Shown one piece after another: positions 30,821-51,200 of a DNA stretch of 54,028 nucleotides (its first letter is position 1; each line of letters opens with the position of its first letter). The position numbers were made by a program, and so were the translations under genes. The stretch lies in IMG/VR virus record IMGVR_UViG_3300006754_000024, positions 1 to 54,028 of that record; one strand, 5' to 3'. The notes under the pieces are model-generated. The model saw nothing but the letters and a program-made list of their open reading frames with translations. It was not told the origin of the DNA and did not search any database. This DNA is from a virus.

Positions 30821-31183
30821 ATGGCTACCAAGAAAGAAAAAAACACCCTGATTCTCCTCGCACTCGTGGGAACAGGTCTGTGCCTGGCCTACCGGAGAAA
30901 GAAGATGTCTTCGACTGTGGGCGGATACGGAGCCACGGCTAACCATGCCGCTCAATGGTATCCGGCCATGCAGAGAATGGGTGGGCCAGGTCCCGTAACT
31001 TGGACTCCCCTCGGACCATTTATAGAGCACGTAGGATGGGAGTGCGCCCATGCTCATCCTGGACTTTCTCACCAGCAGTGGACTCAGCTCTATATGCGGA
31101 AGTATTACGGCGTCGATCCGAGTGTCGGCCCGTCGGTGGTTCCAGCCCTAATCGGAAGCGATCCTGGAGCTGTGAAGATATGA
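30821..31183 (+). CDS. N-anchored membrane protein, 120 aa
   Basis: Unlike most neighbours the anchor is N-terminal: MATKKEKN, a helix (LILLALVGTGLCLAY), then RRKK. The soluble part carries VGGYGAT and is rich in Trp, His and Pro. The topology may be inverted relative to the tail-anchored set, placing this domain on the other membrane face. Stop overlaps the next start (ATGA). Confidence 0.68.
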   Translation: MATKKEKNTLILLALVGTGLCLAYRRKKMSSTVGGYGATANHAAQWYPAMQRMGGPGPVTWTPLGPFIEHVGWECAHAHPGLSHQQWTQLYMRKYYGVDPSVGPSVVPALIGSDPGAVKI

Positions 31184-32447: not shown

Positions 32448-32890
32448 ACTCGTACCTTCCCATAAACTACGCCGGAGGCGGTTGGGCGGGCGACCCTGAG
32501 CAGCAAGAAGCTGCACAGGCGCTCATCGGACACGGCACGGGGATACTCAGCGAGCTCCTGTCTGATGCAGGCAGGGAAGGGCTTGCAGAGGACATCGAGA
32601 CATATGGGCCGGTGGTGGCCTCTACCGTCTCTGTTCTCCAGTCTCCGGAGCGCCAGGTGGGGATTCTGAGGAACCGGCTCGCTACCGCCGAACGCCTGAA
32701 TCTTCCAGAGGCATTTGTTGGGCGCATCCGAGCTCAACTCGCGGCAGCGGAATCGGCGCTCGCTCGCGAAAGGGAATCGGACGAGGCGGCATCTAAATTC
32801 CGCGAACTTGGTACAATTGCCTCATACGTCGGGATTGGCGTCGGGGTTTCTTTAATCATCCTATTTATGAGTCGAGCGTTTCGACGGTGA
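32444..32890 (+). CDS. Tail-anchored helical protein, 148 aa
   Basis: The N-terminus is short and Gly-rich (INYAGGGWAGD), the middle is helical and charged, and the C-terminal transmembrane helix (YVGIGVGVSLIILFMS) ends RAFRR. It follows the same plan as its neighbours. Confidence 0.7.
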   Translation: MNSYLPINYAGGGWAGDPEQQEAAQALIGHGTGILSELLSDAGREGLAEDIETYGPVVASTVSVLQSPERQVGILRNRLATAERLNLPEAFVGRIRAQLAAAESALARERESDEAASKFRELGTIASYVGIGVGVSLIILFMSRAFRR

Positions 32891-32900
32891 GAGGCAAAAA

Positions 32901-33665
32901 ATGGACATAAGCACACTTTGGGCGAACAAGATGATCGGGCTCGGCGCGATCGGACTGGCAGGCGGTTACATCACAGGCAAGACCAAGAAGAAGAAGCAGA
33001 TGAATGCTCTCCTTGGAGCTGGTATCGGTGCGGGAGTTGGGGCCTTCCTCAACATGCGCCAAGAGGCAGCAGCATCCGAAGCGCTCTCTGGATATGGAGC
33101 TCCAGCGCAGATCACAGCCGGCCACATGGGACCGGGAATGATGTCCGGCGGCACCAGTGGCGGGAGCTCGATCCCTTACGTTGCCGCAGACGCAGGCCCA
33201 ACCGGAGCTCGGCGTCCACGAAAGGGAAGCTATGCGTACCGTCGAATCATGAAGCACCGGGAAGACCTGGCTGGGTATGGAGCCATCCGTCCGGCGCGTG
33301 GAACTCGTGCCTACCGACGGGTAACGAGCCCCATGCCTCCCTATTCTCCCGTTCCGATGCCGGTGGGGTCCTATCGTCCAGTCCACACGCCTCGAGCTCC
33401 GTACCGGAGGGTTCGCTCTCCGATGCCTCGCTATCAGGCCGTTCCGGGAATGCACCGGTCCTCCTATCATCGCCCGCACGCTTCGTATCGGACCAAGCAG
33501 TATTGTGCCCAGATCAAGCAAGCGATGGACGCGATGATGGCGGCTATGGCGAACAATCAGCCTATTCACGCATATCCTGGCGGTCCCGTGCTTTCTCCTG
33601 AACAGGCAAGAGCGAAGCTCCATCGGGTAAAGCAGGTTCACGCTCACTGGTGTTCGATGCTCTGA
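32901..33665 (+). CDS. Gly-zipper membrane protein with Tyr/Arg/Pro repeats, 254 aa
   Basis: Two N-terminal Gly-rich hydrophobic helices (IGLGAIGLAGGYITG and LLGAGIGAGVGAF) are separated by KTKKKKQ, forming a glycine-zipper hairpin. The rest is a basic, low-complexity region with repeated AYRRV and SPMPxY units and two GYG motifs, ending in a helix with Cys. It may oligomerise in membrane, as pore-forming or packing proteins do. Ribosome site AGAGGC. Confidence 0.7.
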   Translation: MDISTLWANKMIGLGAIGLAGGYITGKTKKKKQMNALLGAGIGAGVGAFLNMRQEAAASEALSGYGAPAQITAGHMGPGMMSGGTSGGSSIPYVAADAGPTGARRPRKGSYAYRRIMKHREDLAGYGAIRPARGTRAYRRVTSPMPPYSPVPMPVGSYRPVHTPRAPYRRVRSPMPRYQAVPGMHRSSYHRPHASYRTKQYCAQIKQAMDAMMAAMANNQPIHAYPGGPVLSPEQARAKLHRVKQVHAHWCSML

Positions 33666-33680
33666 GAGCAGGAGGGAAAT

Positions 33681-33842
33681 ATGATGTCCTACTACGCCGG
33701 CTGCGGCTGTGGCCCGAGCTGCGGCTGCGCTCCTTGTCGAACCGCCTACGGAAACTACGGCCGGTTTGATCCGAAAACGAATCTCATCCGAATCGGATTG
33801 GGAATCGGGCTGCTTGTACTCGTTTTGAAGTGGGGAAAGTAG
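33681..33842 (+). CDS. 53-residue Cys-rich single-pass protein
   Basis: A short gene after AGGAGGGAAAT. The product starts MMSYYAGCGCGPSCGCAPC, with five Cys residues in 13, then AYGNYGRFDP, then a transmembrane helix (IRIGLGIGLLVLVLKW) and GK. It shows the operon's plan in its smallest form: a Cys/Tyr-Gly head plus anchor. The close fit between flanking genes supports it. Metal binding or disulphides are possible. Confidence 0.75.
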   Translation: MMSYYAGCGCGPSCGCAPCRTAYGNYGRFDPKTNLIRIGLGIGLLVLVLKWGK

Positions 33843-33843
33843 A

Positions 33844-34920
33844 ATGGCCCTTCCAGGAACCTTCGCCACCCCGATGACCATCTACGGCATCCTTGGCGCT
33901 GCCATAGGTTTTCCTATTGGCGGCATCAAGGGCTCCGTGAAGGGTGGCATCGGTGGGGTGGGGCTCGGAGCCCTGATAGGTCTCGCCAAGCGAGCCAACC
34001 CGAACGATCCGGATGCAGCCGTTCCTGAGATATGGCAACGGGACACCAGGCGTAGCTCCCTACTCCCGACATCGGAAATACTTCCCCCCGGAATCATGGA
34101 AGGAATGGGAGGAAGAGGAGGGAAGGCGTCGGACTACCAGATCGATCTCTCTCAGTTCGAGGGACTATCCACATTTGGAAAGGCCTGGGGCGCAATCCCT
34201 ATCGGAGACGTTGGAGGGGTTTTCAACCCGAGCTCGAGAACCATTCTCGGCGACGTGACTGTCATGGGATGGGACCCGGATCTCGGTCCTTCCAGTATCG
34301 AAACCAATATGATGAATTTCGTGGGAGTCACTCCGGTTAATCAGGATGACCTGGTGGTTCTCTTCGACTGGATGGCCTACCTCGCCTACAACATGAAAAA
34401 CTCGAGCAGCGATGCGGGAGAACACGGAATTACAACCGTGCGGGCTGATTCAACGGTCGCGGGCTACCGAGCTCGGCTCGAGAGATGTGGAAATACCAGG
34501 TTGACTCAGGACGAATCCATAGGCCAGCCGTCCCAGATGGTGTGTGGGCTTCGCGTCATTCGAGCGATGGTGAAGGCCGTGGAGGGGAGCCCGGCTGCGG
34601 TGGATGTCGTAGCGGCACGGCTCGCACGGAACTATTACGAGAACGTCGAGAAGCCTTTGCTGGGCAAAGAGACGGCCACCAGGTACGTTCCAGCTGCACT
34701 CGTGGGAGCGGTGCGACCTCCGGCCCCCTCCAGTTCGAGCTCGAGCTCGAGCTCGAGCTCGAGTGGCTCGAGCACCTATTCGCGACCGTCGGACACTCAG
34801 GTCGCGTTCTTCGAGAGGCGCGGGGTGAAGATCGGAGCAGGAGTGCTCGGTGGAGCTCTTCTCATCACCATCATCGCTCTCGCGGCGTCCGGACGCAAAA
34901 AGAGAGCGCCTGGTGTATGA
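33844..34920 (+). CDS. Membrane protein with Ser tract and C-terminal anchor, 358 aa
   Basis: N-terminal Gly-rich hydrophobic helices (about 10-50) lead into KRANPNDPD. A soluble domain (80-290) follows, then a tract of about a dozen Ser encoded by tandem GAGCTC. The C-terminal transmembrane helix (IGAGVLGGALLITIIALAA) ends SGRKKRAPGV. The Ser tract is a likely flexible linker of variable length. No family recognised. Confidence 0.7.
   Translation: MALPGTFATPMTIYGILGAAIGFPIGGIKGSVKGGIGGVGLGALIGLAKRANPNDPDAAVPEIWQRDTRRSSLLPTSEILPPGIMEGMGGRGGKASDYQIDLSQFEGLSTFGKAWGAIPIGDVGGVFNPSSRTILGDVTVMGWDPDLGPSSIETNMMNFVGVTPVNQDDLVVLFDWMAYLAYNMKNSSSDAGEHGITTVRADSTVAGYRARLERCGNTRLTQDESIGQPSQMVCGLRVIRAMVKAVEGSPAAVDVVAARLARNYYENVEKPLLGKETATRYVPAALVGAVRPPAPSSSSSSSSSSSSGSSTYSRPSDTQVAFFERRGVKIGAGVLGGALLITIIALAASGRKKRAPGV
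34732..34760 (+). repeat. Tandem GAGCTC microsatellite (poly-Ser linker)
   Basis: GAGCTC repeated at 6-base period, about four to five copies, read as AGC TCG (Ser-Ser). It is the longest run of this hexamer in the window and could vary in copy number by slippage without changing frame. Confidence 0.85.
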
Positions 34921-35848
34921 CACTCGCCCATACGATTCGTGGAACGAGCTGAGCTCCTGGGGAAACTACGGGGAATGGAACCTTACGGCAGACGAGCTCA
35001 ACCGGGCCACGTCAGAGATATCTACCGTTCTCGACAACCTGGCCCAGTTTATCGACCGAAAGGCCGGCCTAATCACTCAATGTGCGATTCCGCTGGCGAT
35101 TCCCGACCCTGATTATCCCACCCCGGAGGCCGCCGACCATCGAGTGATCCAGCGCACCATTCGCAAGCTCCGAAGCGCAGCCACCCAGCTCCGATCTCGA
35201 GGATTTCGCGCTGGAGTGCATCCGAACCAGCTGCGGAAATTCATTTCGATGTGGATCAATGGCGATGCAGCTCTCGACGGAGGAGACCTCCTTTTTCAGA
35301 CTATCGCTGCCTGTTTGTGCGCTCCCTCCCGCACTGGGAGCGGGGGAATGTATGCGGCAGGACTCCCGGATATGGAAGGGACTCTAGGAAAAGACGCCAG
35401 CGGTTCCTGGTCCTGTAGGCCGAGCGTCATTCGGCGGACCTGGGGATTCGACGATCAGGCCGATGCGTGGGAGCGGAGCTGGATCGTCACACTTCCGACC
35501 GAGAGCAAGCCGGAAGGAGAGGGGGGATGGAGATGGCGGATTACGACGGACGGGATTTGGACCGTTGATAACGAGATCGACGATTTTCTCGGATCTGCGG
35601 TTTCCGCCCTCGTGTCTCGTGTCACGAGTACCCCCGCTCCCAGTACGGCCGCGCCAGGTGGCTCCGCTCCGCCAGGAGCGCCTCCCCCGCCAAGTGCGGA
35701 CACGATTTTAGGCATCAAAAAAAGCCTGTTCTTTGCAATCGTCGGGAGCGTTGGAGGCCTGGTCCTACTCGCCTCCATGATCGGAGTAGCGAAGCGCAGG
35801 CAACGACGAATTCAAGCTCAAAGGAGAGCAAGCTATGAGACGCTCTGA
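34913..35848 (+). CDS. Tail-anchored protein with N-terminal WGNYGE motif, 311 aa
   Basis: I chose GTG 34913, which overlaps the upstream gene and puts SSWGNYGEWNLT close to the N-terminus, as in the next gene. The ATG at 34917 is in another frame that stops after 11 codons. The soluble domain (about 20-230) is helical then strand-rich with several Trp. A Pro/Ala/Ser linker precedes a transmembrane helix (LFFAIVGSVGGLVLLASMIG) and AKRRQRR. Confidence 0.7.
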   Translation: MYDTRPYDSWNELSSWGNYGEWNLTADELNRATSEISTVLDNLAQFIDRKAGLITQCAIPLAIPDPDYPTPEAADHRVIQRTIRKLRSAATQLRSRGFRAGVHPNQLRKFISMWINGDAALDGGDLLFQTIAACLCAPSRTGSGGMYAAGLPDMEGTLGKDASGSWSCRPSVIRRTWGFDDQADAWERSWIVTLPTESKPEGEGGWRWRITTDGIWTVDNEIDDFLGSAVSALVSRVTSTPAPSTAAPGGSAPPGAPPPPSADTILGIKKSLFFAIVGSVGGLVLLASMIGVAKRRQRRIQAQRRASYETL

Positions 35849-36611
35849 AGACTGGCACCAACAGTGGGGCTCCGCGTGGGGAGACTACGGGGCCAACTGC
35901 TCGAATTGGCAGATCGACCCGAGCTCCCACCACTTCCAAAACCCTCGCACGCTCTCTGAGAAGATTGAGCGAATGCGGTTCGCTGTCGGTGGCAATCGAA
36001 AGACCGGCTATGAGGAGCCTATCCCTACCACCAAGGCCGAGGCCATCGCCGTCTTGGAGCACGCTCGTCGCCAGGCGTCCCTGGATGGGCCTCAAGGTGC
36101 GATGAACTTCTTCAACGATTCGCAGTCCCAGCTCTTTTCCCAGATGGACGAGAACAACATCCTGGACATTCTGGAGCGGTCCCTAACCATCTATGCTCGA
36201 GGCTTCGAGGAGTGTGGAGTGGAGCCGTCGGTATTCGCGGCCGGGTACCTGCAAGGAAAGGTCGAAGCGCTTGGGGGCCAAGGCATTCCGCAGCTGCGGA
36301 TCAACGTGTGGGGAAGAGAAGAAGAGGCCCAGCCCGCCAAGGCTGCGCCTCCGGCCACACCGGGGGCACCAGGCGCGGCCGGAGAGGGTAGGTCTGCGGC
36401 GGAGGTGATCCGACAAGAGGAGCTCGCTCGCCTGAAAGCTCAAAGAGAGGCCGAGAGAGCTCGGTGGTGGGCCGCGAACAAAACCAAGGTGTTTATCGGG
36501 ATCGGTGTGTTCGTCCTTCTCCTCGGAGTCGGTGGGGCAGCTGCGAAGAAACGATCGAAGAGAGCTCGACGCCAATCTCCAGCGGACGAGCTGATGGGGT
36601 ATCTCACATGA
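35835..36611 (+). CDS. Tail-anchored protein with N-terminal WGDYG motif, 258 aa
   Basis: The N-terminus reads QWGSAWGDYGANC, matching the motif in the preceding and following genes. A helical domain (35-155) is followed by an Ala/Pro linker, a long charged helix, a transmembrane helix (VFIGIGVFVLLLGVGGAAA) and KKRSKRARR. It overlaps the upstream gene by 14 bases and the next by ATGA. Confidence 0.7.
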   Translation: MRRSEDWHQQWGSAWGDYGANCSNWQIDPSSHHFQNPRTLSEKIERMRFAVGGNRKTGYEEPIPTTKAEAIAVLEHARRQASLDGPQGAMNFFNDSQSQLFSQMDENNILDILERSLTIYARGFEECGVEPSVFAAGYLQGKVEALGGQGIPQLRINVWGREEEAQPAKAAPPATPGAPGAAGEGRSAAEVIRQEELARLKAQREAERARWWAANKTKVFIGIGVFVLLLGVGGAAAKKRSKRARRQSPADELMGYLT

Positions 36612-37489
36612 AAGCACCGACACCGAACTCCTGGGAAGGACAATGGTCTTCCCAATACGATGCGGCGAACCCGAACGAATACGGGCTCATTCCGATCCTT
36701 ATCGGGCTGGCAATTATCGGCGGAGGCGGCGGCTACATGGCCTACGAATCCGCACAGACCGCCCTCGAACATACTCAGACCAGCGATATGTGGGCGGCTC
36801 TGCGAGTCGAATATGACAAGCGAAACAGCCCCTTGACAAGCTGGAGAGATGAGCGAGTCCAGACGATGTGGCTCAATGCTCCCGCGAACGATGTCGAGGC
36901 CGATATCATGGCAGCGTTCTGGATGTACCGAGCAGCTCGACAGGCGAAAGAGCAGGTAGGGTTCACCGCCTATCACGAAACCCTTATCGCACAGGGAGAT
37001 ATGTACTGGAGGGCCGGAGAGCAGCGCCAGGCCGTAGCAGGATGGCAGGACCACACGGGCCAGATCATGAACATCCTAAAGGGTGCAGCCGCGAAGGTGG
37101 GGGATATCGACATCGGGATGCGGGTGGCCGTCCAAGACTTGGCCAACCCAAGGGCCATCGAGCAACGCCGACACCTAACTGCTACCTTGGGGAATCCGGA
37201 CTGGATGCGGTGGCAGTGGGCGAAGGAGACGGGAAGCGACATCGCTCAGCTGGCGACGGACCCTATGGCAGCAACCGGAATCGACGATCTGGTGAACGCT
37301 CCTAAAAACCTGTGGGACGAATACAAGTGGTGGATAATCGGGATCGGGGGCGGGTATCTACTCCTGAACATCCTACTGGCTGCACGCGGAGGGAAGAAAA
37401 GCCGAGCCCCAGCTCGAGCTCGAGCTCGACCTCCGGCCCGATCGAGACCTTCGGGACGGAGCCTGAGCGAAATACGAGGCGGATCCTGA
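36608..37489 (+). CDS. Two-pass membrane protein, 293 aa
   Basis: An N-terminal NSWEGQWSSQYDAANPNEYG is followed directly by a transmembrane helix (IPILIGLAIIGGGGGYMAY). A helical soluble domain (50-240) comes next, then a second helix (WWIIGIGGGYLLLNILLAA) and a very basic Arg/Ala/Pro tail partly encoded by tandem GAGCTC (ARARARP). Both termini would lie on the same membrane side. Confidence 0.7.
   Translation: MKAPTPNSWEGQWSSQYDAANPNEYGLIPILIGLAIIGGGGGYMAYESAQTALEHTQTSDMWAALRVEYDKRNSPLTSWRDERVQTMWLNAPANDVEADIMAAFWMYRAARQAKEQVGFTAYHETLIAQGDMYWRAGEQRQAVAGWQDHTGQIMNILKGAAAKVGDIDIGMRVAVQDLANPRAIEQRRHLTATLGNPDWMRWQWAKETGSDIAQLATDPMAATGIDDLVNAPKNLWDEYKWWIIGIGGGYLLLNILLAARGGKKSRAPARARARPPARSRPSGRSLSEIRGGS
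37412..37431 (+). repeat. Tandem GAGCTC run (Ala-Arg codons)
   Basis: Here the same hexamer repeat is phased as GCT CGA and encodes alternating Ala-Arg in a basic tail. The change of phase relative to the poly-Ser runs shows that the DNA word, not the peptide, is what recurs. Confidence 0.8.
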
Positions 37490-38064
37490 TGGACGCTCGA
37501 GAGGAATACGTCAAATGGCACAGCTGGGGAGACGTTGGAGAGGGATCCATCCAACCCACTAAGGTACTGGACATCGACGGTCCGGGATTCCCGTCTGAGC
37601 TCGTAGCGATGGGAGAGCTCCACGAGCTCCACGTCGAGCCGACAGACGGAGACCAGATTGAGATCATCGACTACACCGACGAGCCTGGCTGGGCGGCATA
37701 CGATCCGAAACACCCTTTGCAGAGGATCCACCTATGGCTCCCCGAGGAACAAAGGAAGTGGATGGTACAGCACTACGTGGACACTTCGCCGAACGCGGAA
37801 TGGTGGTCTCTACAGGCGGTTGCAAAGGCAGTCGGAGGTCGCCAGGCCTCCTATCCGATCTACGCACAGGAAGAGGTTCAGCCCATTGGACCGCTAACCC
37901 ATATCACGTACTATACGGAGAAGGTGGGAGACGGGCTCAGCCAGTACATTCATGAGTTCGGTGAGGAATCCGATCTCCGACCCTGGCTCGTCGTGGACCG
38001 TCGAGGTAATATATTCGTCGTGGGGGGTAACTATCACAGCCCATACGAGGGGATTACTGATTGA
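37489..38064 (+). CDS. Soluble protein with N-terminal SWGDVGEG motif, 191 aa
   Basis: KWHSWGDVGEGS near the N-terminus matches the WGxYGE motif of its neighbours. The rest is a soluble alpha/beta domain rich in Trp, Tyr and acidic residues, with a strand-rich end (WLVVDRRGNIFVVGGNY). It has no membrane segment. It may be a peripheral partner of the tail-anchored set. Confidence 0.66.
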   Translation: MDAREEYVKWHSWGDVGEGSIQPTKVLDIDGPGFPSELVAMGELHELHVEPTDGDQIEIIDYTDEPGWAAYDPKHPLQRIHLWLPEEQRKWMVQHYVDTSPNAEWWSLQAVAKAVGGRQASYPIYAQEEVQPIGPLTHITYYTEKVGDGLSQYIHEFGEESDLRPWLVVDRRGNIFVVGGNYHSPYEGITD

Positions 38065-38849: not shown

Positions 38850-40154
38850 ATGGCAACTCGTCGGTATTCACGGCGACGGCGCAACACAGGCGCTCTGCTC
38901 GTCAACCCACGCCGTCGGCGTCGGACCAGGAAGAAGAGGACTAGCGCGAAATCGCTACTCTCCCGCCTGCGCCGTCGCAAGACCACAAGTAGCAAACGCA
39001 AGCGCAGTGCAGCCGCGAAGAAGGCAGCAGCCACCCGGCGTCGCAACGCGACTCGTCGGAGCAACGCTGCCAAGCGTGCCGCTCGCACTCGTCGCCGCAA
39101 CGGAACCAAAAGGGGCCAGCGTCGCCGTACTGCTCGCCGGGCATACACCCGCCGCCGTAACGGTACAACTCGAGGGATGCGTCGCAAGACCGCTCGCCGA
39201 GCGTATACCCGTAGACGGCGCAATACTGGAGTCATGACAGGGATTCAGCAGAATCTCAAGAAGGTTCCAGTCGTTGGTGGAATGCTGAGCGATATCGTTG
39301 GGCTCGGTGTCCCTGCCGCGTTCGGTGCTATCTCGATCCTTCCGATCGAAATGGGACTGAAGGCCGGTGGACGGTACCTCCCCGAGAAGCTCCAAGCCGT
39401 TTCCTTCACCGTCGGAGGCCTCCTGATGGGTGCCCTGGCGAAGAAGTTCCTTCCCGCCGGGAAGTTCCGGGATCAAATCAGTGTCGCTCTCGCGACTGCT
39501 GGTGGTGCCGTCGACTTCTACCGCTGGCGACAGGGGCAAACCACAGTGGCGGCAATCGAAGTCGCTGAGGCTGCGACGGCCGGGTTCGGTGAGCTCGAAG
39601 TCATGAGCGGCTATGGTGAGCTCGAAGTCATGAGCGGATACGGTGGTGGCTACGGTGAGCTCGAAGTTATGAGCGGATACGGCGATATGGGGTACGATGT
39701 CGTAAATTTTGATGTAGCGGGGGCTGGCACTTCCCTCGGAGCGTATCTTAGTGATGCTTCGATGGCCGATGCCTATTATTCTGGGAGTGATCTGGGCGCC
39801 GCCGAGCGTACAGCAGCACTGGCCGGTCCTCGCCGTTTCATGCGCCGTTTTCCATCTCCGGGACGTAGGCTTCACCGCCTACGTCAAACCGGTTCTTCCC
39901 AATCCCAGCCCTCGGCTAACGCCGGGAAGCCGGGATGTGGGAAGAAGTGGATGATATGTCTCGTTGGGTTTGACAACTTTCAGAAAATTGCAGCTCTCCC
40001 CACCAAGGAGCGCAGACGGGTTATCCGTTCTCTGAAGCGTCAAGCCAAACAATCTCTTCCTGATATGCTCTCGACCGATGATTCGATGGATCCAAATACA
40101 GCGATGGATTCTACCGAAGGGTTCGGAGCCCTCATGTACGCTGGTGGCTACTAG
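38850..40154 (+). CDS. Arg-rich core protein with membrane region and decapeptide repeats
   Basis: A 434-residue protein after AAGGAGCAAAA. Residues 1-130 are protamine-like, with repeats of TARRAYTRRRNGT and one VNPRRRRR. About 145-235 is Gly-rich and hydrophobic, containing two or more possible membrane helices. Then GELEVMSGYG occurs three times (39588-39680). The end is Ser/Pro-rich, then helical. The basic head should bind DNA and the middle a membrane, so a major internal virion protein is likely. From about 39.2 kb the codon use shifts to GGT/GCT/GTT. Confidence 0.72.
   Translation: MATRRYSRRRRNTGALLVNPRRRRRTRKKRTSAKSLLSRLRRRKTTSSKRKRSAAAKKAAATRRRNATRRSNAAKRAARTRRRNGTKRGQRRRTARRAYTRRRNGTTRGMRRKTARRAYTRRRRNTGVMTGIQQNLKKVPVVGGMLSDIVGLGVPAAFGAISILPIEMGLKAGGRYLPEKLQAVSFTVGGLLMGALAKKFLPAGKFRDQISVALATAGGAVDFYRWRQGQTTVAAIEVAEAATAGFGELEVMSGYGELEVMSGYGGGYGELEVMSGYGDMGYDVVNFDVAGAGTSLGAYLSDASMADAYYSGSDLGAAERTAALAGPRRFMRRFPSPGRRLHRLRQTGSSQSQPSANAGKPGCGKKWMICLVGFDNFQKIAALPTKERRRVIRSLKRQAKQSLPDMLSTDDSMDPNTAMDSTEGFGALMYAGGY
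39588..39680 (+). repeat. Three copies of a 27-30 bp coding repeat
   Basis: GGTGAGCTCGAAGTCATGAG begins copies at 39588 and 39615. The third, at 39654, differs by one base (GTT for GTC) after a 12-base insert. They encode GELEVMSGY units. The near identity indicates recent duplication, and each copy carries one GAGCTC. Confidence 0.9.
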
Positions 40155-40160
40155 AGAGCC

Positions 40161-40198
40161 TTTTCAACTAAATCAACTTAGGCTGTAAAGGTTCAGCC
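40161..40198 (+). promoter_or_regulatory. Possible promoter and hairpin before the capsid candidate
   Basis: TTTTCA (40161-40166) and TGTAAA (40184-40189) are 17 bases apart, a weak sigma70-like match in an AT-rich 57-base gap. GGCTG (40181-40185) and CAGCC (40194-40198) could form a small stem in the leader. Confidence 0.35.
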
Positions 40199-40211
40199 AA
40201 GGAGAAACAAA

Positions 40212-40859
40212 ATGCCTTACGGTATCCCAGGAGTTCCCATGCTCCCCCCCGGTGGCCCCGGAGTTTCCGGCGTTCCACTTGAACTTCCGAAGAATGTTGT
40301 CCGGGTTGGAGAGCAGGCTTTGTGGAGCACTTGCCAGCTCGCTATCGGTGGCGTCGCTTCTACTACTGCTCGAGTTTTCTCGACTCCCATTGGTCAAACT
40401 GGTCAAGGGTATGGTGCTGCTCTAAGCCTTGCAGAGACGAATCTCAAGGAAGGAGGCCGCATACCGGCCGGTCTTGCATACGATACGTTCGGCGTAGCTT
40501 GTGTGATCCAGGGTGCTGCTGCTGTCGTTACTCCTACTGTAGCCGACGCTTCTGTCATCTATAAAGACGGCGTGCTCTCATGGGATTTTTTGCAAACGGT
40601 AATTGATATTGCGCCTTGTTCCTTGATTGGAGCTGGTGGCGGTCTGTTCGCTATCGGGTCCGGTGCAGCCGCAACGGAGTACGTCAATAACTCGAACGGT
40701 GGATTGTGGGTGTACAGGCGCCACCCCGTTGCGTTGCCTGCCAACACAACCTTCAACATTCTGCTTCGTTTCGGCTCGAGCGCTCAGCCTCTCGTTGCTG
40801 TCACGAACGTGAAGATTGTTCTCGTTGGTGCCTATCGTCAGGCGATCGAAATCGCCTGA
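40212..40859 (+). CDS. Putative major capsid protein, beta-rich, 215 aa
   Basis: The protein has almost no long helices, few charges and many short strands (CQLAIGGVASTTARVF, GVACVIQGAAAVVTP, LWVYRRHPVAL, NILLRFG), suiting a single jelly-roll capsid subunit. Supporting signs are a strong AAGGAGAAAC ribosome site, a dedicated terminator, codon use biased to GGT/GCT/GTT as in highly expressed genes, and no GAGCTC at all. Three similar beta-rich genes follow. The call is structural inference; no homologue is named. Confidence 0.55.
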   Translation: MPYGIPGVPMLPPGGPGVSGVPLELPKNVVRVGEQALWSTCQLAIGGVASTTARVFSTPIGQTGQGYGAALSLAETNLKEGGRIPAGLAYDTFGVACVIQGAAAVVTPTVADASVIYKDGVLSWDFLQTVIDIAPCSLIGAGGGLFAIGSGAAATEYVNNSNGGLWVYRRHPVALPANTTFNILLRFGSSAQPLVAVTNVKIVLVGAYRQAIEIA

Positions 40860-40870
40860 TTCGCACAGAA

Positions 40871-40904
40871 AGGGAGGGGCAAGCGATTGCCCCTCTCTCT
40901 TCTG
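40871..40904 (+). terminator. Hairpin terminator after the capsid candidate
   Basis: A 9-bp perfect stem, GAGGGGCAA (40874-40882) and TTGCCCCTC (40887-40895), with a GCGA tetraloop, extends to 12 bp with one G-T pair. It is followed by TCTTCT rather than a T run, so it is probably partial, which would favour high expression of the upstream gene. Confidence 0.6.
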
Positions 40905-40930
40905 GAATTTAACCTCGGACCGGAGCTCAT

Positions 40931-41554
40931 ATGTCCTACGGTGACGGATATTACGGTGGCGGGCCTCCTGTTGCGGCTGGAAGCCCCTTCTCGAACCAGG
41001 TAGTCGGTAGCGGCGGCATGCCTGGAATGCAGGCACAGCTCAATCCTCCGAGCAGAGCGAGCTCAGGCGGGCCAGCCGGCCAGCCTCTTCCTCCCTTCAT
41101 GCGGACCCCTGTCTGGCCTCCTCAGCTCCTTCTGAGTACGAACCGCCAGGTTGCCCACCAGCATCGCGACTATGTCGTTCAGAACCTCAATTCGCCCGTC
41201 AATACGGCCTCGGTTCAGACTATTCGCTTCGACATTCCCTGTCTGGTGTACGCGATCCAGGCATCTGTCGAGAACACGGCAGCTCTGAATACCCAGATCG
41301 GAGCCAATGGGGATCTCAACACCTTCCTTTGTCTGCTCGAGCACTCGAATGGAGATCGTCTCACGACCCAGGCCTGCCTCGGTGGTTCTGTGTTCGGATC
41401 GGCAGAGCTCCCTCGACTGATTGGCGGAAACGGATGGGTCTTCGACCGTGGTGGAGCTCTCGTCTTCACTTTCACCCCGCTCGCCGCCAATATGCGGATC
41501 AATGTCAACGTGTGGGCAATCGAAGAGCGTGGGCCACGAAATCTAACTCGATAG
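40931..41554 (+). CDS. Beta-rich capsid or vertex protein, 207 aa
   Basis: The N-terminal 65 residues are Gly/Pro/Ser-rich and disordered (MSYGDGYYGGGPPVAAGSP). Residues 70-207 alternate strands and loops (TIRFDIPCLVYAIQAS, LVFTFTPLAANMRINVNVW), a jelly-roll-like pattern. It may be a second capsid protein or a vertex component paired with the 40212 product, as in viruses with two single-jelly-roll capsid proteins. No family recognised. Confidence 0.55.
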   Translation: MSYGDGYYGGGPPVAAGSPFSNQVVGSGGMPGMQAQLNPPSRASSGGPAGQPLPPFMRTPVWPPQLLLSTNRQVAHQHRDYVVQNLNSPVNTASVQTIRFDIPCLVYAIQASVENTAALNTQIGANGDLNTFLCLLEHSNGDRLTTQACLGGSVFGSAELPRLIGGNGWVFDRGGALVFTFTPLAANMRINVNVWAIEERGPRNLTR

Positions 41555-41564
41555 GGGGCCGACG

Positions 41565-42200
41565 ATGTCGACACGCAGGCCCACCCACATAGGGTACTAC
41601 GAGGATATGTCCCAGATCCCCGAGCCGGTTCCGGCTCCGGGGGAATGGAGCGACAAGGGACAGTGGCACAATCCTGCTGGAACCCTTCCTTTTCCCAATC
41701 CCACCAATATGCCCATCGGTGTGTGGAACGGCATTCCGACGATGCTGGTGTGGACTGCGGGAACGGCCCCCAGTGTGCGAACGGCCCAGTGGCGTAGTCC
41801 TGTATTCGATCTCCGGCCGGAGCAGCGTGCGGCCCGTGGTGAAGTACGAAACCAAGGAACCATTCCTATCTGGAAGCCCTCTACCGTGACAGGTGGAGCC
41901 GGCGGCCGTCTTTGGGTTCAGATCGGAGACTTTTCGACGCTCGCCGTTAGCGTGACAAGTATGGAGATGAACTTTCGCGAGCGAGGACATATCCAAGATC
42001 CGAACTCCATGTCTGTCATCTGTCCGAACGAGGACATCACTGACAAATACGTGCCAGGGATGCAGGATTGCATTCTGAGCTTCACTCCACCTGGTGAGGG
42101 CTACCCGGTACGCTACTGGCAGCTGATCCTACAGTTCGACGTGTACGATGCAACCCTGCCTTCAGATCCAGCTTTGCAGGTTGAGGGGAGCTACTACTAA
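41565..42200 (+). CDS. Beta-rich virion protein, 211 aa
   Basis: A Pro/Trp-rich N-terminal arm is followed by a strand-rich domain (GRLWVQIGDFSTLAVSVTS, YWQLILQFDVYDATL) much like that of its neighbours. It has no enzymatic motif and no membrane helix. The TAATG overlap couples it to the next gene. Probably a capsid, spike or penton protein. Confidence 0.55.
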   Translation: MSTRRPTHIGYYEDMSQIPEPVPAPGEWSDKGQWHNPAGTLPFPNPTNMPIGVWNGIPTMLVWTAGTAPSVRTAQWRSPVFDLRPEQRAARGEVRNQGTIPIWKPSTVTGGAGGRLWVQIGDFSTLAVSVTSMEMNFRERGHIQDPNSMSVICPNEDITDKYVPGMQDCILSFTPPGEGYPVRYWQLILQFDVYDATLPSDPALQVEGSYY

Positions 42201-42607
42201 TGCCTATTTTGGCCGATATCTCCCAAGCTGGGCCACCCGCCTCGAGTGGGACTGCCACCTGGTACCAGGAAGTCCTTCTCAACGCAGGCGGAGCTTTCAA
42301 CAGCCAGGCCTTGATGGTGCCCGCGCTCCCCGCGCTCACCTTTTGGGCTGAGGTCTTCAATGCGGGTGGCGTCGCCGTTACGCTTCAACCTCAGTTCGCT
42401 GCTCGAGGAACGACTAATGTGGTCTTGGGACAGCCCAACCCGGTTCCCACCTGGTTAGACCTGGCTCCGCCCGTCCTGATCCCCGCGTTCGGTGGCGGAG
42501 TAACTCTCAACAACTACATCTGCCCGTGCGTCTGGATCCGGATGGTGCTCACTCGAACCGCCGCCGTAAACACCAGTGTCCGCCTCTACATGGCTGGGAG
42601 CGTGTGA
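42200..42607 (+). CDS. Beta-rich virion protein, 135 aa
   Basis: A compact, strand-rich, low-charge protein (TFWAEVFNAGGVAVTLQPQF, WIRMVLTRTAAVNTSVRLYM), resembling a small jelly-roll subunit and similar in feel to the 109-residue protein at 14880. Starts by TAATG overlap and ends by TGATG overlap with the 862-residue gene. Last of the four beta-rich genes. Confidence 0.55.
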   Translation: MPILADISQAGPPASSGTATWYQEVLLNAGGAFNSQALMVPALPALTFWAEVFNAGGVAVTLQPQFAARGTTNVVLGQPNPVPTWLDLAPPVLIPAFGGGVTLNNYICPCVWIRMVLTRTAAVNTSVRLYMAGSV

Positions 42608-45195
42608 TGCCTGGCTACAAGATCGTCCTTCGCAAAAACGGAGCCAAGCGTGGAGAGCTCACCGGCTACGCCACCAAGAGCTCGGCCGTCGCAGAGGCTC
42701 AGACCCTCGCTGACAGCGCCGGAGGCGGAGTCAAGGTGTACGTGGAGCCGGTGAAGGCCAAAGCCAACAGGAAGGCTCCCAGGCGTCGAAATACGCAGTT
42801 AAAAAGGGACCAGAAGGTAAAACTGAGCGATTCCGCTCTCTCCCGGAGGTACTCTGGCGATCGAGCTAAAGGAAAGCAGTGGCGGGGTACTATATTTGAA
42901 GTGGTCGGACCGCCAGGAAGTGGGGCGGGAGAATGGGGAGCCGAGATGTGGTCCGCCAACGGAGAAAAGGGGTACATCGTCGTAAACCAAACGGATCCTC
43001 ATGGGAGGTGGTACGCATTAGGAGATGTGGTCGCCGCATCCACCGCCACTAAGAAGGCTCCCAGGCGCAAGAAGAATAGCGACAGAGAGCTCGTCGCCTT
43101 CCCCGGAATAAGGAGGCCATCGGACTATCCGGGAGGAAAAAACAGCTACGACGAGGACTTCTTCCAGGGATACCGGGCCGGAGAGAAGGCCTTGGCTCGC
43201 AAACGCAAGACCCCTCTTTCGGGGGTGGACGCCGAGAGGTACTTTCGCAGGTATGGACATGGGCATGGTAGCTGGTGGATCAACGGATTCCGTGCCGCTA
43301 TCGCTGTGGACCGTGGAGAATATGCGACGAAGGACTACAAGATAGCGGTAAAGGTGGGCCTGGTTCATCCTCCGGGACGTTTCAATCCTAAGCGGAAGAA
43401 CAGGAAGACGAAGCACCGTCCAGGAAGCGCGAAGACCCCAGCTGGTTTTCTCTCCACCGAGGGCCAGAAGCTCGTGGTGAGGTCGAATATCACAGGGAAT
43501 ATCCTTCCTAAGAGCTGGACCGGGTTCGCTTTCAGCTTGGACGGAGACTCGGTCATGAAGATCGGGCGTTCGGGGGGCGAGCGTTCCTACGAGGTGGCCA
43601 AGCGGATTCGGAGATCGAACACCAGGAAGAACCCGACAACGGCCGAGGTCGCCAAGCTCGCAAAATGGCAGAACCTAACTGGGCTCTCGAAGTCGAAAAT
43701 CGACAAGCTCGCACAGGAAGCCTATCGCATGGGCGATGTAGGCCACATGAGCACGCTCCAGCTCGGGAAACACTTTTCTCGGTTCCTCCCCGCCAAGTCG
43801 AAGAGCACGCACACCAACCTGAGAGGATGGGGAGACTTTCTCTTCGAGCTCGGATGGTTGGAGCTCCCGCACCTTCCGCGTAAGAACCAGGGCTATGATC
43901 AAACCAAAAAGGTTCTTCAGCAGGCGTCTAAACTCATCGACCAGGGCAAATTCAAACAGGCCGATTCCTTAATCCGTGGTTCGGGTGGAAGCAGGGCAGA
44001 CCTATCGAATATTTTGGGCTCGTCCAGAATGAAGAAGATGGCAACCTGGGCTAGCGGTACCACCAGGCGGAAAAACTATTCGACTGGCGACGCCTGGCTC
44101 CAAGAGGCCGACACGGAAATGGAGGAGGAAGGCACCGTCGGAGCCTTCACCAAGCAGGCCAGGCGAGCCGGGTACAAGGATACAATGGCCTTCGCTCGAG
44201 CCGTCATGAAGGGCTGGCGGAGCGGGAAGAAAAAGGTCTACAACAAGAAGACCAGAAAGCAGCAAGGGATCACCCAAAAAACGATGTACCGGGCCAACTT
44301 CGCGATCAATGCTCAGAAGCGGCGGAATCCCCACGGAGCGCCCCAACGCATGACAATGGACCTGGGCGAATTCAGGTGGATCGCTGGCCCCTACTCGACC
44401 GTCGGGAAGGCAAACAAGGCGAAGGAAGCCTCTCACCATCGATCCTGGGGCGCCAGGTACCCCAAGACCTACACGCGCGTAAGGAAGGAAGGAGGCGCCT
44501 ACCATGTCTATTCTTACGATCCAGAGGTTGCCTCTCGTTACAACCCAGCATGGGGCGAGATGGCCGGCGCGGTAGGAAAGGGGCTCGGAAAGGCCGGCAA
44601 AGCCGCCTGGAAGGGCGCCAAGCGAGGAGCCCAGTACGGCTACGAGTACGGAAAGGAAGGAGCCGCTCGCGGAAAGGAGACGGCACAGGCGGCCGTGATC
44701 GCTGCCAACCTGAAGGACTTTCAGAGATGCGCCAAGAAGCTCCACATCACTCCGGGAGAGCTCCAACAGCTCGAGCCCTATGTCGACGCCATCGACAAGG
44801 CGCAGGCCCATATCGAGTCGACCCAAGAACGGCGCTCCTCGAGGGGAGCTCAGAGACAGACTGCTCTCGCCAAGAAATGGAACGGGAAGCGTCGGAATTC
44901 AACGCCTGGAAAACGTGGGTGGCACCCGGTACTTTTCGGCTCGAATCTGATAATCTCAGGTGTCGGCCGGGATACGAATGGGAACAAGGTCATCAAAGTT
45001 AGTTACCCCAACTCGAGAGCCTGGTCGATCCAGACTCTCGGAACGCCGATGCACGGGCTCTTGCGGGGCGTTACAGCGAGATATGAAATCCTGCCGGACA
45101 TCTCGAGCGCCATCGAGCCCATGCTCATCGACCACATCCGAAAGTACGGATCTGCAAAGCAAAAGAAGGGACTACGAGTCTACTCCGGCGGGTAG
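42607..45195 (+). CDS. Modular basic 'polyvalent-type' protein, 862 aa
   Basis: ATG 42607 is fixed by TGATG overlap. The protein is a chain of small domains separated by basic linkers with Asn-Pro or similar: KAPRRRNTQ, KAPRRKKNS, GRFNPKRKN, TRKNPTTAE, QKRRNPHGA, RYNPAWGEM and GKRRNSTPG. Domains include an N-terminal KIVLRKNGA unit, an SH3-like strand region, several helical units and a Gly/Lys/Tyr-rich segment after NPAWGEM. No catalytic motif is visible. The architecture fits a virion-borne modular protein that may enter the host with DNA. Confidence 0.7.
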   Translation: MPGYKIVLRKNGAKRGELTGYATKSSAVAEAQTLADSAGGGVKVYVEPVKAKANRKAPRRRNTQLKRDQKVKLSDSALSRRYSGDRAKGKQWRGTIFEVVGPPGSGAGEWGAEMWSANGEKGYIVVNQTDPHGRWYALGDVVAASTATKKAPRRKKNSDRELVAFPGIRRPSDYPGGKNSYDEDFFQGYRAGEKALARKRKTPLSGVDAERYFRRYGHGHGSWWINGFRAAIAVDRGEYATKDYKIAVKVGLVHPPGRFNPKRKNRKTKHRPGSAKTPAGFLSTEGQKLVVRSNITGNILPKSWTGFAFSLDGDSVMKIGRSGGERSYEVAKRIRRSNTRKNPTTAEVAKLAKWQNLTGLSKSKIDKLAQEAYRMGDVGHMSTLQLGKHFSRFLPAKSKSTHTNLRGWGDFLFELGWLELPHLPRKNQGYDQTKKVLQQASKLIDQGKFKQADSLIRGSGGSRADLSNILGSSRMKKMATWASGTTRRKNYSTGDAWLQEADTEMEEEGTVGAFTKQARRAGYKDTMAFARAVMKGWRSGKKKVYNKKTRKQQGITQKTMYRANFAINAQKRRNPHGAPQRMTMDLGEFRWIAGPYSTVGKANKAKEASHHRSWGARYPKTYTRVRKEGGAYHVYSYDPEVASRYNPAWGEMAGAVGKGLGKAGKAAWKGAKRGAQYGYEYGKEGAARGKETAQAAVIAANLKDFQRCAKKLHITPGELQQLEPYVDAIDKAQAHIESTQERRSSRGAQRQTALAKKWNGKRRNSTPGKRGWHPVLFGSNLIISGVGRDTNGNKVIKVSYPNSRAWSIQTLGTPMHGLLRGVTARYEILPDISSAIEPMLIDHIRKYGSAKQKKGLRVYSGG

Positions 45196-45201: not shown

Positions 45202-48200
45202 ATGATCGAAGAACTCAAAAAGCGGATACGGAACGCTGGCACAGAGAGCTCGGAAAAACGAGAAGTACAGCGCGAGCTCGAGAGCCATGGACACCGGAAA
45301 CATCCAGAGTCCCACCAGGCCACCCTCGAAGACCGCAGGGTGGTACGCATGTACCTATGGAGGGCTACCCCGCTGGGGCACCTCTGCCTGGTTACCGGTC
45401 CCAGCGTGGAGCCCAGTCTCTACGAGCTCTACGAGGCCGCTCCAGGAGAAGAGCCCTCAGAGGTTTACTTCCCTTCAAAGCGAGGCAAGCCGGCTCTCAC
45501 CGTTCGCACGAATCCCCAGGCCCGAGTAGGCAAGGTCCGAGAGGCTAAGGACGGTAGCAAATACGTGCTTTGGAGGCCCGTATTAGCGGACGGCAGCCGA
45601 CCTCGCGTGTATCTGGACGCCGAGGAGCCGGGGATTGACGCCGAGCTCATAGATGTGATGGAAGCTCAGGAACAGCTGGCAGCTGGAAAGAGAGCGGTGG
45701 AGCGTCGCGTAAAGGAAGCCAAAAAGGAAGGGAAGCGGGGTATTTTCAAGGGAGGCTCCGGACGGAAGATCATAACTGGAGCTCCGAAGGCTAAGCCCAT
45801 GGAGCGGGCCGCCTCTCGCACGCCTCTTTTTGACTCTGAGGGAAAGGAATATCTCGCTACATATATGGTAATCCCAGCCCACAGGGACGGGATGGGAGAC
45901 CTTCGATCCTCGAACCTACCTGGTTCCTTCGAGGAGACTCCCCACTACCCCACCGTCTTCCAAGCCCGAAGCCTACAGCGACTCGGAGAGACGCGGAAGA
46001 TCGAGAAGATTGCCGCCAACCTGGACGCGGAAAGAGTTCTCCTCCCGCACAGCGATGCCACCCTGGGCACCCCGGTGGTCTGGGAGGGAGACGATAAAGA
46101 GCACAGAATCGCTGGAGAGCAAGTCTATACCCCGAAAGGCACCTACTATGTGCTGGGTGGGAACGGACGAGCAATCGCGATCCTGATGGCCCCCACGGGG
46201 AAATATCAGTCCTACTCGAGACGGGGAAGGTCTCTCTGGTCCGACGTGTGGCCCGCTGGGAGCTCTCCAGCTGGCACGAGAGACGTTCTGGTCCGCCTGG
46301 CCACCAAGCCCGACGGAACGCCACTGTCCTTCGCTCAGGCCCGTACTCTTGCGGGACGAACCCAGAAGAGCGCTTCTGGAGAAGAGTCTCCCATCGGAAA
46401 GGCTCTCTCGCTCATCCGTTCACTCGGCATCGAGCGCGTGGCCGATCTCCCGCCTTTTGTCTGGAAGGGGATAATCACCCAGGACAATGTGGAAGAGTTC
46501 CAGGAGTTCAATCCAGCCTTTGCGAGAGCGGTGTTTGCTTCGATGGGGGCAGCTCGAGCAGAGAGCTACCAGCAGGACTCGGCGCTTCTCGCTACGCTCT
46601 TCAACGACATTATGGTCGGCTACCTTCCCAGGCGCTTCCAGCTCCAAGGGTTCGTTTCTGAGAAACAGGAGCGAGCTCTACTCGCCGCTCTTCCTATTAT
46701 CGTCGCGATCCACCAGGGAGTTCAGGATCGATCGGTCCAAGACAAATGGGACCTTTTCCCGTTGCTCGATGCGGCTTCTCGTTTCGCCCAGGCAATCAAG
46801 AACAAGTCGGATTCGCAGGCGATTGCCATGGTCGAGGCCGCTGCCTCTCAGATTCAGATGGGCGAAGGCACGGGAATAGCGGAGAAGTTCAAGTCTCTGT
46901 TCGACGAACTCCCTCTCTTGGGTGTTTTGTTCGGCCTGGTCCTCAAGAAAGCAGAGAAGTCTCGCGACCCGGCATTGACGGTAGAGAAATACCTCACCCC
47001 CTACGCTGCCGCAGCATTCGATCCCGGAGAGAGCGCTGCCCAGTCGGGACTGTTTGCGGCTCCAGGCCGTCCCGATGCCGGCAAAGACCCCACCGAGATC
47101 CTTGCTACCGAGCTCGGCGTCCGCCTACCGCGCCGGATGCGCGAGGCGACGGTGGAGCAGGGGCGGTTGATCGCGAATCCCAAATTCCCCATGGGAGGAG
47201 AAAAAAAGCCGTGGGCTCCGGCGATGGTCGAGGCCATCGACCAGTTCCCGGTGGGCGCCATCGTCAAGCTTCGACCAACGCAGGGGTGGAGTCGCACATT
47301 CCCTCATCGGATCCTCTCCGATTCCGTCCTCGATAACCACTACCGGGTCGGAACCCACACCTGGATGGAGAACCTCCAGAGCGTATTCCTGGAGACGGAC
47401 CCCGTACACCCTGAGACTCACGAGCTACTGAGGGATAGTCGTGGTGGCAAGTACAACTACCAGGTGCTCGGTACCGAGGATGTGGAGCTCGTCTGGAGCC
47501 CAGAGCCAGAGCCGGACCCGGAGGAGAGCCAACAACGCCTCTTGAACCGGAAAGGACAGCTCCGCTTGCGGAAGGCCGGGAGCAGGATCCTCGAGGAGCT
47601 CTACCTACGCGGCCCTACCCCCTACGCTGAGACTCCCGAAGGAAAGCTCGCTGATGGACCGCAAGAGCTCCTCGATAAAGGGCTGGCGTCGAAGAAGACG
47701 TGCATCGCAGCTGAACATACCCTTTACGACCGGGAGACCTGTGTTCTGCGCCTGACGAAGAGGGGAAGGGACTACGCGAAGAATCGCCGTAGAGCCGAGC
47801 GCACGCACCAGGCCGCCAGGCAGGGGAAGCTGTGGAACAAAGGCCCCCACTATTTCGATGAACTCGGAGAGCTCGGAGCTCCGTCGATTGGTGAGAAGGG
47901 GTACAAGCCGGCTCCCGATTTCGGCAACGCCTACGGAGGGCAGACACCCTACGAGCTCGCGGACCGCCTGGTGGGGAACGCTGAGGTATTGATGGAAGAG
48001 CCCGAGCTCTACTGGGCCTACTGTGCCGAGCTCCCGGAGGCTTGTGGAGGCCTGGCCGATTCGGATTTCTCCTTAGCGGATATGCTTCAAGTCCCTTTTT
48101 CCGGTCCGGACGGAAAGCGAATGACTGAAGCGGAGCGGGCGGGAATTGCGCTTTCTGCCCTGGCCGTCACTGCGGAAGCGCTGCCTGACAGGTGGAGCGG

Positions 48201-51200
48201 AGAGAAGATCATACTCGGCGAGAGAAAGAGCAGGAAGGGACCCACTACCTTGATCGAGGCTCGAAGAGGCGACTCCGGGGAGGTTCCGATGTGGGCTGCG
48301 ACTGCGGCCCTTACCGACTGGCTGGCCTCGCTGGTTCCCGGCTATTCCCAGGTCTTGCGCCTGGTTAACATCGACAAGAAGACAGCACAGGACTTCATCG
48401 AGAAGCACCACTCGGCGCTCCCCTACCTAAACGCTCGTGGCCTGCTCTTTGCCCTTGGATTGATGAAGGGCTCCCGCCTGGTGGCCGTAGCGACGGTTAA
48501 CTCGAATACGGCCAACCTGAGCAAGACCCGTAGGGTATTGAGCGGCGAGCTCGACGTGAAAGATGTCCTCGAGCTCACCCGTGTGGCATCGGATGGGAGC
48601 GTAAAGGGGGCTGCGTCGAAGCTCGTGGCCCGTGTGATCGATATCATGGAGCAGGGCAAGCGGAGCGGAGGCGACGCACCCGCGCTCCTAATGACTTACC
48701 AGCTCGCTACCGAGTCTGGAACGACCTACAAGGCCTTGAAGGACAAGGGATTGAGGCCCGTGGCAGAGGTAAAGGGCTCAGCTCCGAGCGGAGCTCGTGG
48801 TGGAGACCCGGCCGAAGACCGAGCTCTGGCACAGGTGGACAAAATACGATGGGAGTGCTGCGTCGACCCTCCCGCGATGCGGGCGGACTGGGACATCCTG
48901 GGACGCGAGCAGAAGACTCTCTGGAACCCGAAGGAAGGGGAAACCTCCTGGTTCAAGGGGGATCAGGTTCGATTCACGGGTGCCCAGAGCGAACATGATG
49001 GGTTCTGGCAGGCCGTCTATATTGACGGGCACCGGAAAGGCCAGATCGTCTGGGTCTACCCTGAACATGCAGGCGTTCGGATGCTCCACGGAGAAGAAAA
49101 ACTCCAGCCCCGCGACAATCCGAAGAAGTCTCCGCCTGGCTCCTTCAAGTCCTGGGAAGAATACTATCTGTGGAAGATGAACGGGATCAACAGAGCCATG
49201 CTGATCACGGAAGACGCTATCCGAAGCATGGACCCGGAGCGAGCCAACATGCCCGGTGGCGCGGTGGCCCACTACCGCACCCTCGAGAAGAAACGCCGCG
49301 ATCTCCTCGAGCACATGGAGCTCGCAGGGGTGAAGCTCAGGAACCCCGGAGAGCCAGAGGACCGGTTCGCCCCCTTCCTGAACGCAAAGGTGGGCCAGGT
49401 GTTTCTGGTTAGGGCTACGGACTATCCTGGAGCTCCGAAACGGAAATGGATGAAAGACACGCTGCTGGCCTATCGGGTCTACAAAAAGCCCGATATCTCG
49501 GCGGTCGCGCCCTACCTTATCGACCCGGAGGGCGCTGAGATCGAGGTCGAGCCGGTAGGCGGCACGAAGGGACGCGACGGAACCTTCCTAATCCGACCCA
49601 ATTTTGAGAAAGATAAGCTCCGCACTATGATCCTCCTCCGGGATAAAAACGGCCACCATGTGACGGGGCACCCCATCGAGTTCGTCCGCCATGCTGCCGG
49701 CCACTTGGATCTACCCGCTGAGAGCTCGGGCCAGACGGTGATGTTCAACCCCGAAGAAGCACCCGGCCAGGTAGAGTTCGAGTTCCTGGGAGCGGTGCCC
49801 GTTCTTCACTTTGCCTCTGGGACGAACAGGCCTGGAAGTATCCGGGGATTCGCAGACCTGGGCAAAGCCGTGGGCTCTGCCTTCGCCTCTGTAGACAAAA
49901 AGTCCGGCCGCTGGGTTCGCGAATGTCGCGGACCCTGTCTCGAGGAGCTCGCTCGAGCCGCTTCGTTGGGTATACCGGTGTTTCTGGATTCAGGTGCATT
50001 TAGCGAGGTCGACTTCCCCGAAGACGGTCCGCCAGTTGTAGCGGTGCCCATACCAGAAGAGAGCTGGGCCGAGAGGTTCGATGTCTATCGTTACCTGGCC
50101 GACGCGGGAGGGAAACTGGCCAACGTGGTAGCGCCCGACATGGTAGGCCACCAGGTGGAGAGCTTTCAACGCCTATCCGCCTACAAAGACGAGGTGAACG
50201 AGCTCCTGGATATGGGCGCATCGGTTCTCGTGCCGCTCCAGTTAGGCCCGATTCCGCTTCACGAATATCACGACCAGGTCGACGAGCTCCTGGGCCGGAA
50301 GGACTGGATCCCAGCTCTTCCGTTCCAGAATGCGGCTACCTCCCCTACGCAGCTGGGAGAATACCTGCGCAAAAAGACTCCAGTTCGTCTTCATCTCCTG
50401 GGAATAGGACCCAGGAAGAAAGCAGCTACAGCCGTGGCTCAAGAGATCAGAGAGAACTCTCCGGGTACCCAGGTACAGATGGACAGTGTGGTGATCAAGG
50501 CGCACGTAGGGCGCAAGAGACGGAAGACCGGAGATCCTCGAGGGGAGATAACAGCTGCTCAAGACGAGGCTCGAGAGCAGCTGCTCGAGGAACGCTACAT
50601 CGGCTCCCAGCGAGAGTCCGTTCCTGACTACACGGACCTGGTAGGAATGCCGAGCTCCTGGGCATCCGAGGCGGCACTGAAGCGACTCTCGAGTGCGGCC
50701 CAACTCTCGAGCTCGGAGCGGAAAGAGCTCATCGCCGACCCCGACGAGTTCTTCCAGCGCGAAACCTTCGCTGGCATCGATCACGGGATCCCGTTCTACC
50801 TCGAGCTCGAGCAACCTATTGAGCTCGAGCTCGGTAAGCGTTTCCACTCTCTCGAGACTTTCGAGGCCCAACGCATGGGAATCCGAGAGGGGCTCAAGGG
50901 AATCTACCCAGGGGGCCAGGAATACATTACCAACCCGGAGCAAGAAGAGGGGCACGTTCCGGGAATCGACACTCCGGGACATCCCGGACTTCAGATGGGT
51001 CTTTTCGGTGGTGCATCCTATTCGGACGAGCAAACCGCATCGCCTGGCAGAATAACTATCTTGAACATGGGACTTGGCCGCGACTCGCTCACCATGCTCT
51101 GTCTGCTCGCAGATGGAGAGCTCGTCTGGGACGGTAAGAAACACGGACCCGAAGACGTGGACGCCGTCGTGTTCTCCGATACAGGCGGAGAATGGAAGCA

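Follow-up and report, generated by a model that had tools for sequence, protein, structure and literature searches.

Gene organization of the locus

The window analysed here was an entire IMG/VR record of 54,028 bp, and at positions 38,850 to 42,607 it carried five consecutive genes on the plus strand. The first of them (38850..40154) started with an ATG served by a ribosome-binding site and encoded a 434-aa protein whose residues 1-130 were 45% Arg+Lys (58 residues) with no Asp or Glu, and which contained a moderately hydrophobic stretch at about residues 139-170 (best 19-residue window 1.77). Directly behind this proposed DNA-contacting membrane protein came four genes, named below by their start positions, which encoded proteins of 215 aa (40212..40859), 207 aa (40931..41554), 211 aa (41565..42200), and 135 aa (42200..42607). 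The coordinates and sizes agreed exactly with those given in an earlier sequence-only reading of the window, and the composition and hydrophobic stretch of the first product bore out the Arg-rich membrane-type protein it had placed before the block. Gene calls were made by simple ORF selection instead of a trained gene finder.

The same reading had described the four adjacent genes as strand-rich. When 58 window proteins were ranked by strand-over-helix propensity (Chou-Fasman), 42200 came 3rd, 40212 4th, 40931 5th, and 41565 7th, and four adjacent genes leaning so far towards strand occurred in 0.5% of shuffled gene orders (P = 0.005), which agrees with the description as far as a propensity score, a crude proxy and not a structure, can be read. 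In PRD1, the highest scores went to P5, P31, P3, and P2, all of them known beta proteins; gp45 and gp46 of phage SSIP-1 did not score high on it. The most strand-leaning proteins of the contig were two adjacent products of 109 and 236 aa at 14880-15916, the first of which weakly resembled SSIP-1 gp48 (E 0.087, z 4.0). This pair possibly represents spike or vertex genes.

Direct searches with the four block proteins gave no significant match in Pfam or PHROGs and no match in phages (for 40212, even at E values up to 10), in plasmids, in pattern scans of viral contigs, or in genome contigs, for which the search patterns were poor. PDB sequence searches with the capsid proteins returned nothing relevant.

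Downstream of the block, a basic modular protein of 862 aa with repeated [RK]N[P/T/S/G] motifs (42607..45195, plus strand) was followed by a polyvalent protein of 2506 aa with ddrB-ParB, Mom-like, and PAPS-reductase-like regions (45202..52722, plus strand), which is likely carried in the virion. Its ddrB-ParB-containing sequence had no significant similarity to SSIP-1 gp43. Repeats of the form [RK]-N-P or [RK][RKE]N[P/T/S/G] were also seen in the basic modular proteins at 38850-40154 and 53081-54028, and in three proteins of related contigs (G2:15213-16817, G1:16097-17446, and G4:12371-13762). These motifs were enriched over residue shuffles (in the G2 protein, for example, 7 occurrences against 0.4 expected) and is possibly a maturation-cleavage or virion-targeting motif. 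A 121-aa SnoaL/CaMKII_AD-like protein, unusual in a phage, was encoded after the polyvalent protein and before the contig end (52719-53084); the best E value of 2e-11 came from a pooled Pfam scan and was assigned to this gene by eye.

Elsewhere in the contig, proteins were assigned to ordinary functions, namely a Dam methylase, a helicase, a Sak4-like ATPase, an integrase, RuvC, an amidase, an M15 peptidase, and a transglutaminase fold, and most window proteins had no family match at all. The tyrosine integrase at 14074-14868 suggests a temperate or plasmid-like life cycle. A 1004-aa protein at 16708-19722, with weak DEAD/UvrD helicase matches and an N-terminal region that looked primase-like by eye, had no match among 50,697 phage records. 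At 11268-13715, a Sak4-like AAA_24 ATPase stood beside a small, weakly DUF669-like protein and a nuclease-like ORF, which suggests a recombination cassette. Since the contig had no terminal repeats and its final ORF was open at the right end, it is most likely a fragment.

Membrane proteins with basic-tailed anchors

The Arg-rich protein was one of many membrane-type products. The region 24988..37489 (plus strand) encoded a block of small proteins, at least ten of which had a single C-terminal transmembrane segment followed by a Lys/Arg-rich tail, and these are proposed to be internal-membrane proteins. Two enzymes ended in a similar way. A lytic transglycosylase (2113..2799, plus strand) ended in a membrane anchor with a basic tail, and an N-acetylmuramoyl-L-alanine amidase (24013..24627, plus strand; Pfam Amidase_2, E 1e-31), which stood outside the anchor-scan count, ended in a hydrophobic segment with a basic tail and may be a virion entry enzyme.

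One rule was applied to all genomes, namely a protein of at least 80 aa that ends in one C-terminal hydrophobic segment followed by a tail with a net charge of at least +2. By this rule, 14 of 61 window proteins carried basic-tailed anchors, compared with 0/53 in lambda, 0/22 in PRD1, 1/13 in PM2, 1/26 in P23-77, and 1/53 in SSIP-1. The enrichment over the pooled controls was significant (Fisher 1e-6), with lambda as the one tailed phage among them. SSIP-1 had ten C-terminal segments, mostly with tails near neutral. In the related contig G2, C-terminal anchors were found in 7 of 21 proteins, and all of them were basic.

A transglutaminase-fold protein shared with SSIP-1

SSIP-1, a salt-lake phage, is described as tailless and membrane-containing (PMC6356626, PMC6260650, PMC5332951), with a 44-kb genome and a T=49 capsid; its classification is given as uncertain and single jelly rolls are suspected (PMC6260650). 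It is described as having two capsid protein types, has been an orphan since its description in 2012, and its genome is said to be hardly like anything in GenBank (PMC6356626).

When window proteins were compared with SSIP-1 proteins, the product of 23114..23923 (plus strand) was found to be homologous to SSIP-1 gp34, with 31% identity over 142 aa (E 4e-8). Both proteins contained the same Pfam transglutaminase core and a hydrophobic segment at the C-terminus, and gp34 is annotated as a structural protein. Of 50,697 phage records searched by tblastn with a 1,541-aa concatenation containing the 23114 protein, only the two of SSIP-1 were hit. This was the single significant structural match between the window and SSIP-1; the other significant match fell in the part of the 2506-aa protein that resembles PAPS reductase, a region common among phages.

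Sequence similarity was not found between 40212 and gp45 or gp46, the paralogues for which we infer the role of major capsid protein. In profile comparisons, gp45 and gp46 matched the four block proteins no better than shuffles did, although divergence may hide a signal.

Related contigs with the same gene order

A widened (degenerate) alignment of the transglutaminase gene was used to search for further carriers; alignments A2 and A4 included invented rows, which served solely to widen the patterns, and tblastn searches with the unaltered window protein confirmed the matches. Four further carriers were obtained, namely L014 (35 kb), L015 (21 kb), L016 (70 kb), and L017 (35 kb). L014 and L017 shared the order of the window, with the transglutaminase gene, anchored proteins, a basic membrane protein, and a beta-rich block. 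Specifically, C-terminally anchored proteins were followed by an NP-motif protein of 449-477 aa, a 234-aa protein, a His/Arg-rich membrane protein, and then strand-rich proteins of about 256, 152, 187, 160, and 358 aa. L015 stopped before the capsid block, and L016 (G3) had a hydrophobic 236-aa protein, a 209-aa protein, and then larger strand-rich proteins. The position of the 434-aa window protein was taken by the His/Arg-rich membrane protein in the G1/G4 clade and by the hydrophobic 236-aa protein in G3. In addition, the C-terminus of a 191-aa window protein (37489..38064, plus strand) matched that of the 463-aa protein which, in the G1/G4 clade, precedes the capsid block (E 1.8e-4).

A scan with the 256-aa protein added L029-L032, which had the same block. 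This protein was the most conserved of the block (79-91% across six contigs), as expected for a main capsid protein. The 152-aa protein of the clade matched the structural protein gp47 of SSIP-1 (E 8e-5 in a small database, z 5.2), which ties the block of this clade to SSIP-1 independently.

The first block gene of the window could be connected to both groups of relatives. Compared with the 209-aa protein of G3 (G3:12611-13237, minus strand), 40212 gave a local z of 9.3 and a phmmer E of 0.018, and this z was the highest of 595 pairs, the known paralogues gp45 and gp46 aside. By this comparison the two proteins are homologous. Against the 256-aa protein of the G1/G4 clade, 40212 gave a z of 5.1, the best among about 65 proteins, with the next at 2.35. 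An HMM of the 256-aa family alone ranked 40212 second (E 0.69, not significant); a profile of 40212 and the G3 protein ranked the six 256-aa proteins first after itself (E 0.06-1.1), and the eight-sequence alignment had 11 invariant columns, including a TN pair. On the strength of the z-scores against shuffles and of the G3 homologue, 40212 is probably homologous to the 256-aa protein as well. A homologue of 40212 was present in L016 and probably in L027-L032. For 40931, 41565, and 42200, no homologue or counterpart was established in any contig examined.

Structure models

The single-sequence model of 40212 was of low confidence (pLDDT 31), as was the model of its 256-aa relative built from the eight-row alignment (pLDDT 36.5, pTM 0.35). 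The latter was all-beta, with eight strands and only short helices. No Foldseek match passed E 0.001. The weak matches of the 256-aa model were mostly jelly-roll-like, with SPV1 and the FLiP penton among the first Foldseek rows. Using VIA-align, Z values of 5.5-6.7, which fall in the range of common arrangements, were obtained with the Pam1 capsid, KHP40 cement, TNF/C1q, satellite panicum mosaic virus, and PRD1 P5. Both models are too low in confidence for fold assignment. The matches are suggestive at most, and a jelly-roll fold, as suggested for the block in the sequence-only reading, is a candidate assignment.

Packaging ATPase

An FtsK/HerA-type packaging ATPase, which that reading had linked to a tailless capsid module, was not found within the window contig. 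Family searches (PF01580/PF01935) returned none in this incomplete contig, and the same models also missed PRD1. The AAA_24 ATPase at 12265 was set aside as a packaging motor because it matched Sak4-type recombination proteins. A HerA-like candidate was observed in G4 (L026:11485-12624, minus strand). G4 and G1 encoded a protein with the Walker A motif GQTQRAGKTT, 77% identical between the two, whose sole PDB sequence match was HerA (E 0.34). It is likely the packaging motor of the G1/G4 clade, and it was absent from the window. In SSIP-1, gp40 was recognized as a RecA-like ATPase.

Discussion

We consider it likely that the locus serves as capsid module for a dsDNA phage that has an internal membrane but no tail and belongs to a lineage including SSIP-1 as a distant relative. 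The gene order is conserved in relatives, the 23114 protein is homologous to gp34, 40212 has a homologue in a related contig, and the contig carries an array of basic-tailed anchors. From these observations we infer the shell function, the jelly-roll fold, the topology, and the division of labour as follows. The 40212 product would be the main capsid protein, forming a shell over a lipid vesicle and probably folding as a vertical single jelly roll. The other three genes would add more proteins of capsid, vertex, or cement type; judging by position and composition only, 40931 may be a second or minor capsid protein, 41565 a minor capsid or vertex protein, and 42200 a vertex or cement protein. 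The vesicle under the shell would contain the Arg-rich membrane protein together with at least a dozen proteins anchored by their C-termini, with their short basic tails pointing into the vesicle and holding the DNA. Their N-terminal domains, including the transglutaminase-fold, amidase, and transglycosylase enzymes, would occupy the space between membrane and shell and function during entry.

The alternative that survives best, though we regard it as unlikely, is that the products of the block are vertex, spike, or cement proteins, the actual main capsid protein being encoded elsewhere in the genome or in its missing part. The jelly-roll-like matches do include PRD1 P5, the FLiP penton, and KHP40 cement, and strongly strand-leaning genes are also found at 14880-15916 of an incomplete contig. 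However, no other block protein is as well conserved across the six contigs as the 256-aa counterpart, and the membrane-protein genes lead straight into the block, as gp44 is followed by gp45 and gp46 in SSIP-1.

It is still less probable that the contig belongs to a tailed phage with head and tail genes so divergent that they escape recognition. Family scans of the window proteins gave no match to large terminase, portal, tail, or HK97 capsid families beyond stray weak hits in this incomplete contig, in agreement with the earlier statement that no portal, terminase, or tail gene is recognizable in 54 kb. Missing tail families are weak evidence because most window proteins match nothing, and the contig is a fragment. 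What argues against a tailed phage is that one window protein is homologous to a structural protein from a phage without a tail, that C-terminal membrane anchors are densely arrayed in the contig, and that the relative G4 gave no portal, large terminase, or tail family among the 25 of 46 families listed; these contained one terminase-small-subunit model among many HNH models. A shell of double-jelly-roll protein (Bamfordvirae type) with the four genes as accessories is very improbable: at 135-215 aa, each of the four proteins looks too short for that fold, and no such PHROG or Pfam match was found, although double jelly rolls are common among tailless membrane phages (PMC5894146).

The window and the contigs found with it may together represent a lineage of higher rank that has not been described before, made up of large tailless membrane phages (>54 kb, perhaps 70 kb) of which SSIP-1 is the sole isolate; their vesicle proteins would carry an array of C-terminal anchors whose basic tails tether DNA. 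We put this forward tentatively, as somewhat short of an even chance. Most described tailless membrane phages have genomes of 10-30 kb, and the new members would extend the group well beyond that range. Searches of open-access papers returned no report of environmental SSIP-1 relatives. Relatives with conserved gene order make the capsid, membrane, and packaging genes of SSIP-1 identifiable by comparison, and they bear on the relation of single-barrel to double-barrel capsids. The anchor signature offers a simple route to more members that standard capsid searches miss.

Comparison with known systems

The sequence-only reading had proposed a tailless capsid module of the P23-77 or SSIP-1 type, possibly from a new lineage. 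The tailless module and the SSIP-1 type gained support from the shared gp34-type protein, the capsid-type family of 40212, and its equal gene position in relatives. For two single-jelly-roll major capsid proteins, as in the Helvetiavirae/Halopanivirales (P23-77, SH1), the low-confidence models gave weak jelly-roll-like matches, and 40212 had no sequence similarity to VP16 or VP17 of P23-77. The new lineage was confirmed in part, as a new lineage of a known kind.

P23-77, a Thermus phage (Matsushitaviridae, Helvetiavirae), is expected to be alike in general plan, with small strand-rich capsid proteins, membrane-associated proteins, and amidase/transglycosylase genes, but its genome is 17 kb and its packaging ATPase is recognizable. 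The IMG/VR relatives (L014/L028, L017/L027, L015, L016, and L029-L032) differ from the window in their capsid proteins, at most about 30% identical, and the clade of L014 and L017 has the HerA-like ATPase that the window lacks.

SSIP-1 differs in genome size (43.8 kb versus the 54-kb window contig), in its replication genes, in capsid genes without detectable similarity to those of the window, and in anchor tails that are rarely basic, whereas those of the window are strongly so; conversely, the window has a Sak4-type AAA_24 ATPase in a recombination cassette and no recognized counterpart of gp40. The two nevertheless share the homologous structural protein of the gp34 type, transglutaminase-fold and C-terminally anchored, as well as several other proteins with C-terminal transmembrane segments. 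Each also has capsid-block genes for proteins of about 130-260 aa in a run after a hydrophobic protein, gp45 and gp46 coming directly after gp44 in SSIP-1, and a protein of more than 2300 aa with a ParB-type domain adjoining the capsid genes; in SSIP-1 this is a 2319-aa ParB/methyltransferase structural protein, and no significant sequence similarity to gp43 was seen in the 2506-aa window protein.
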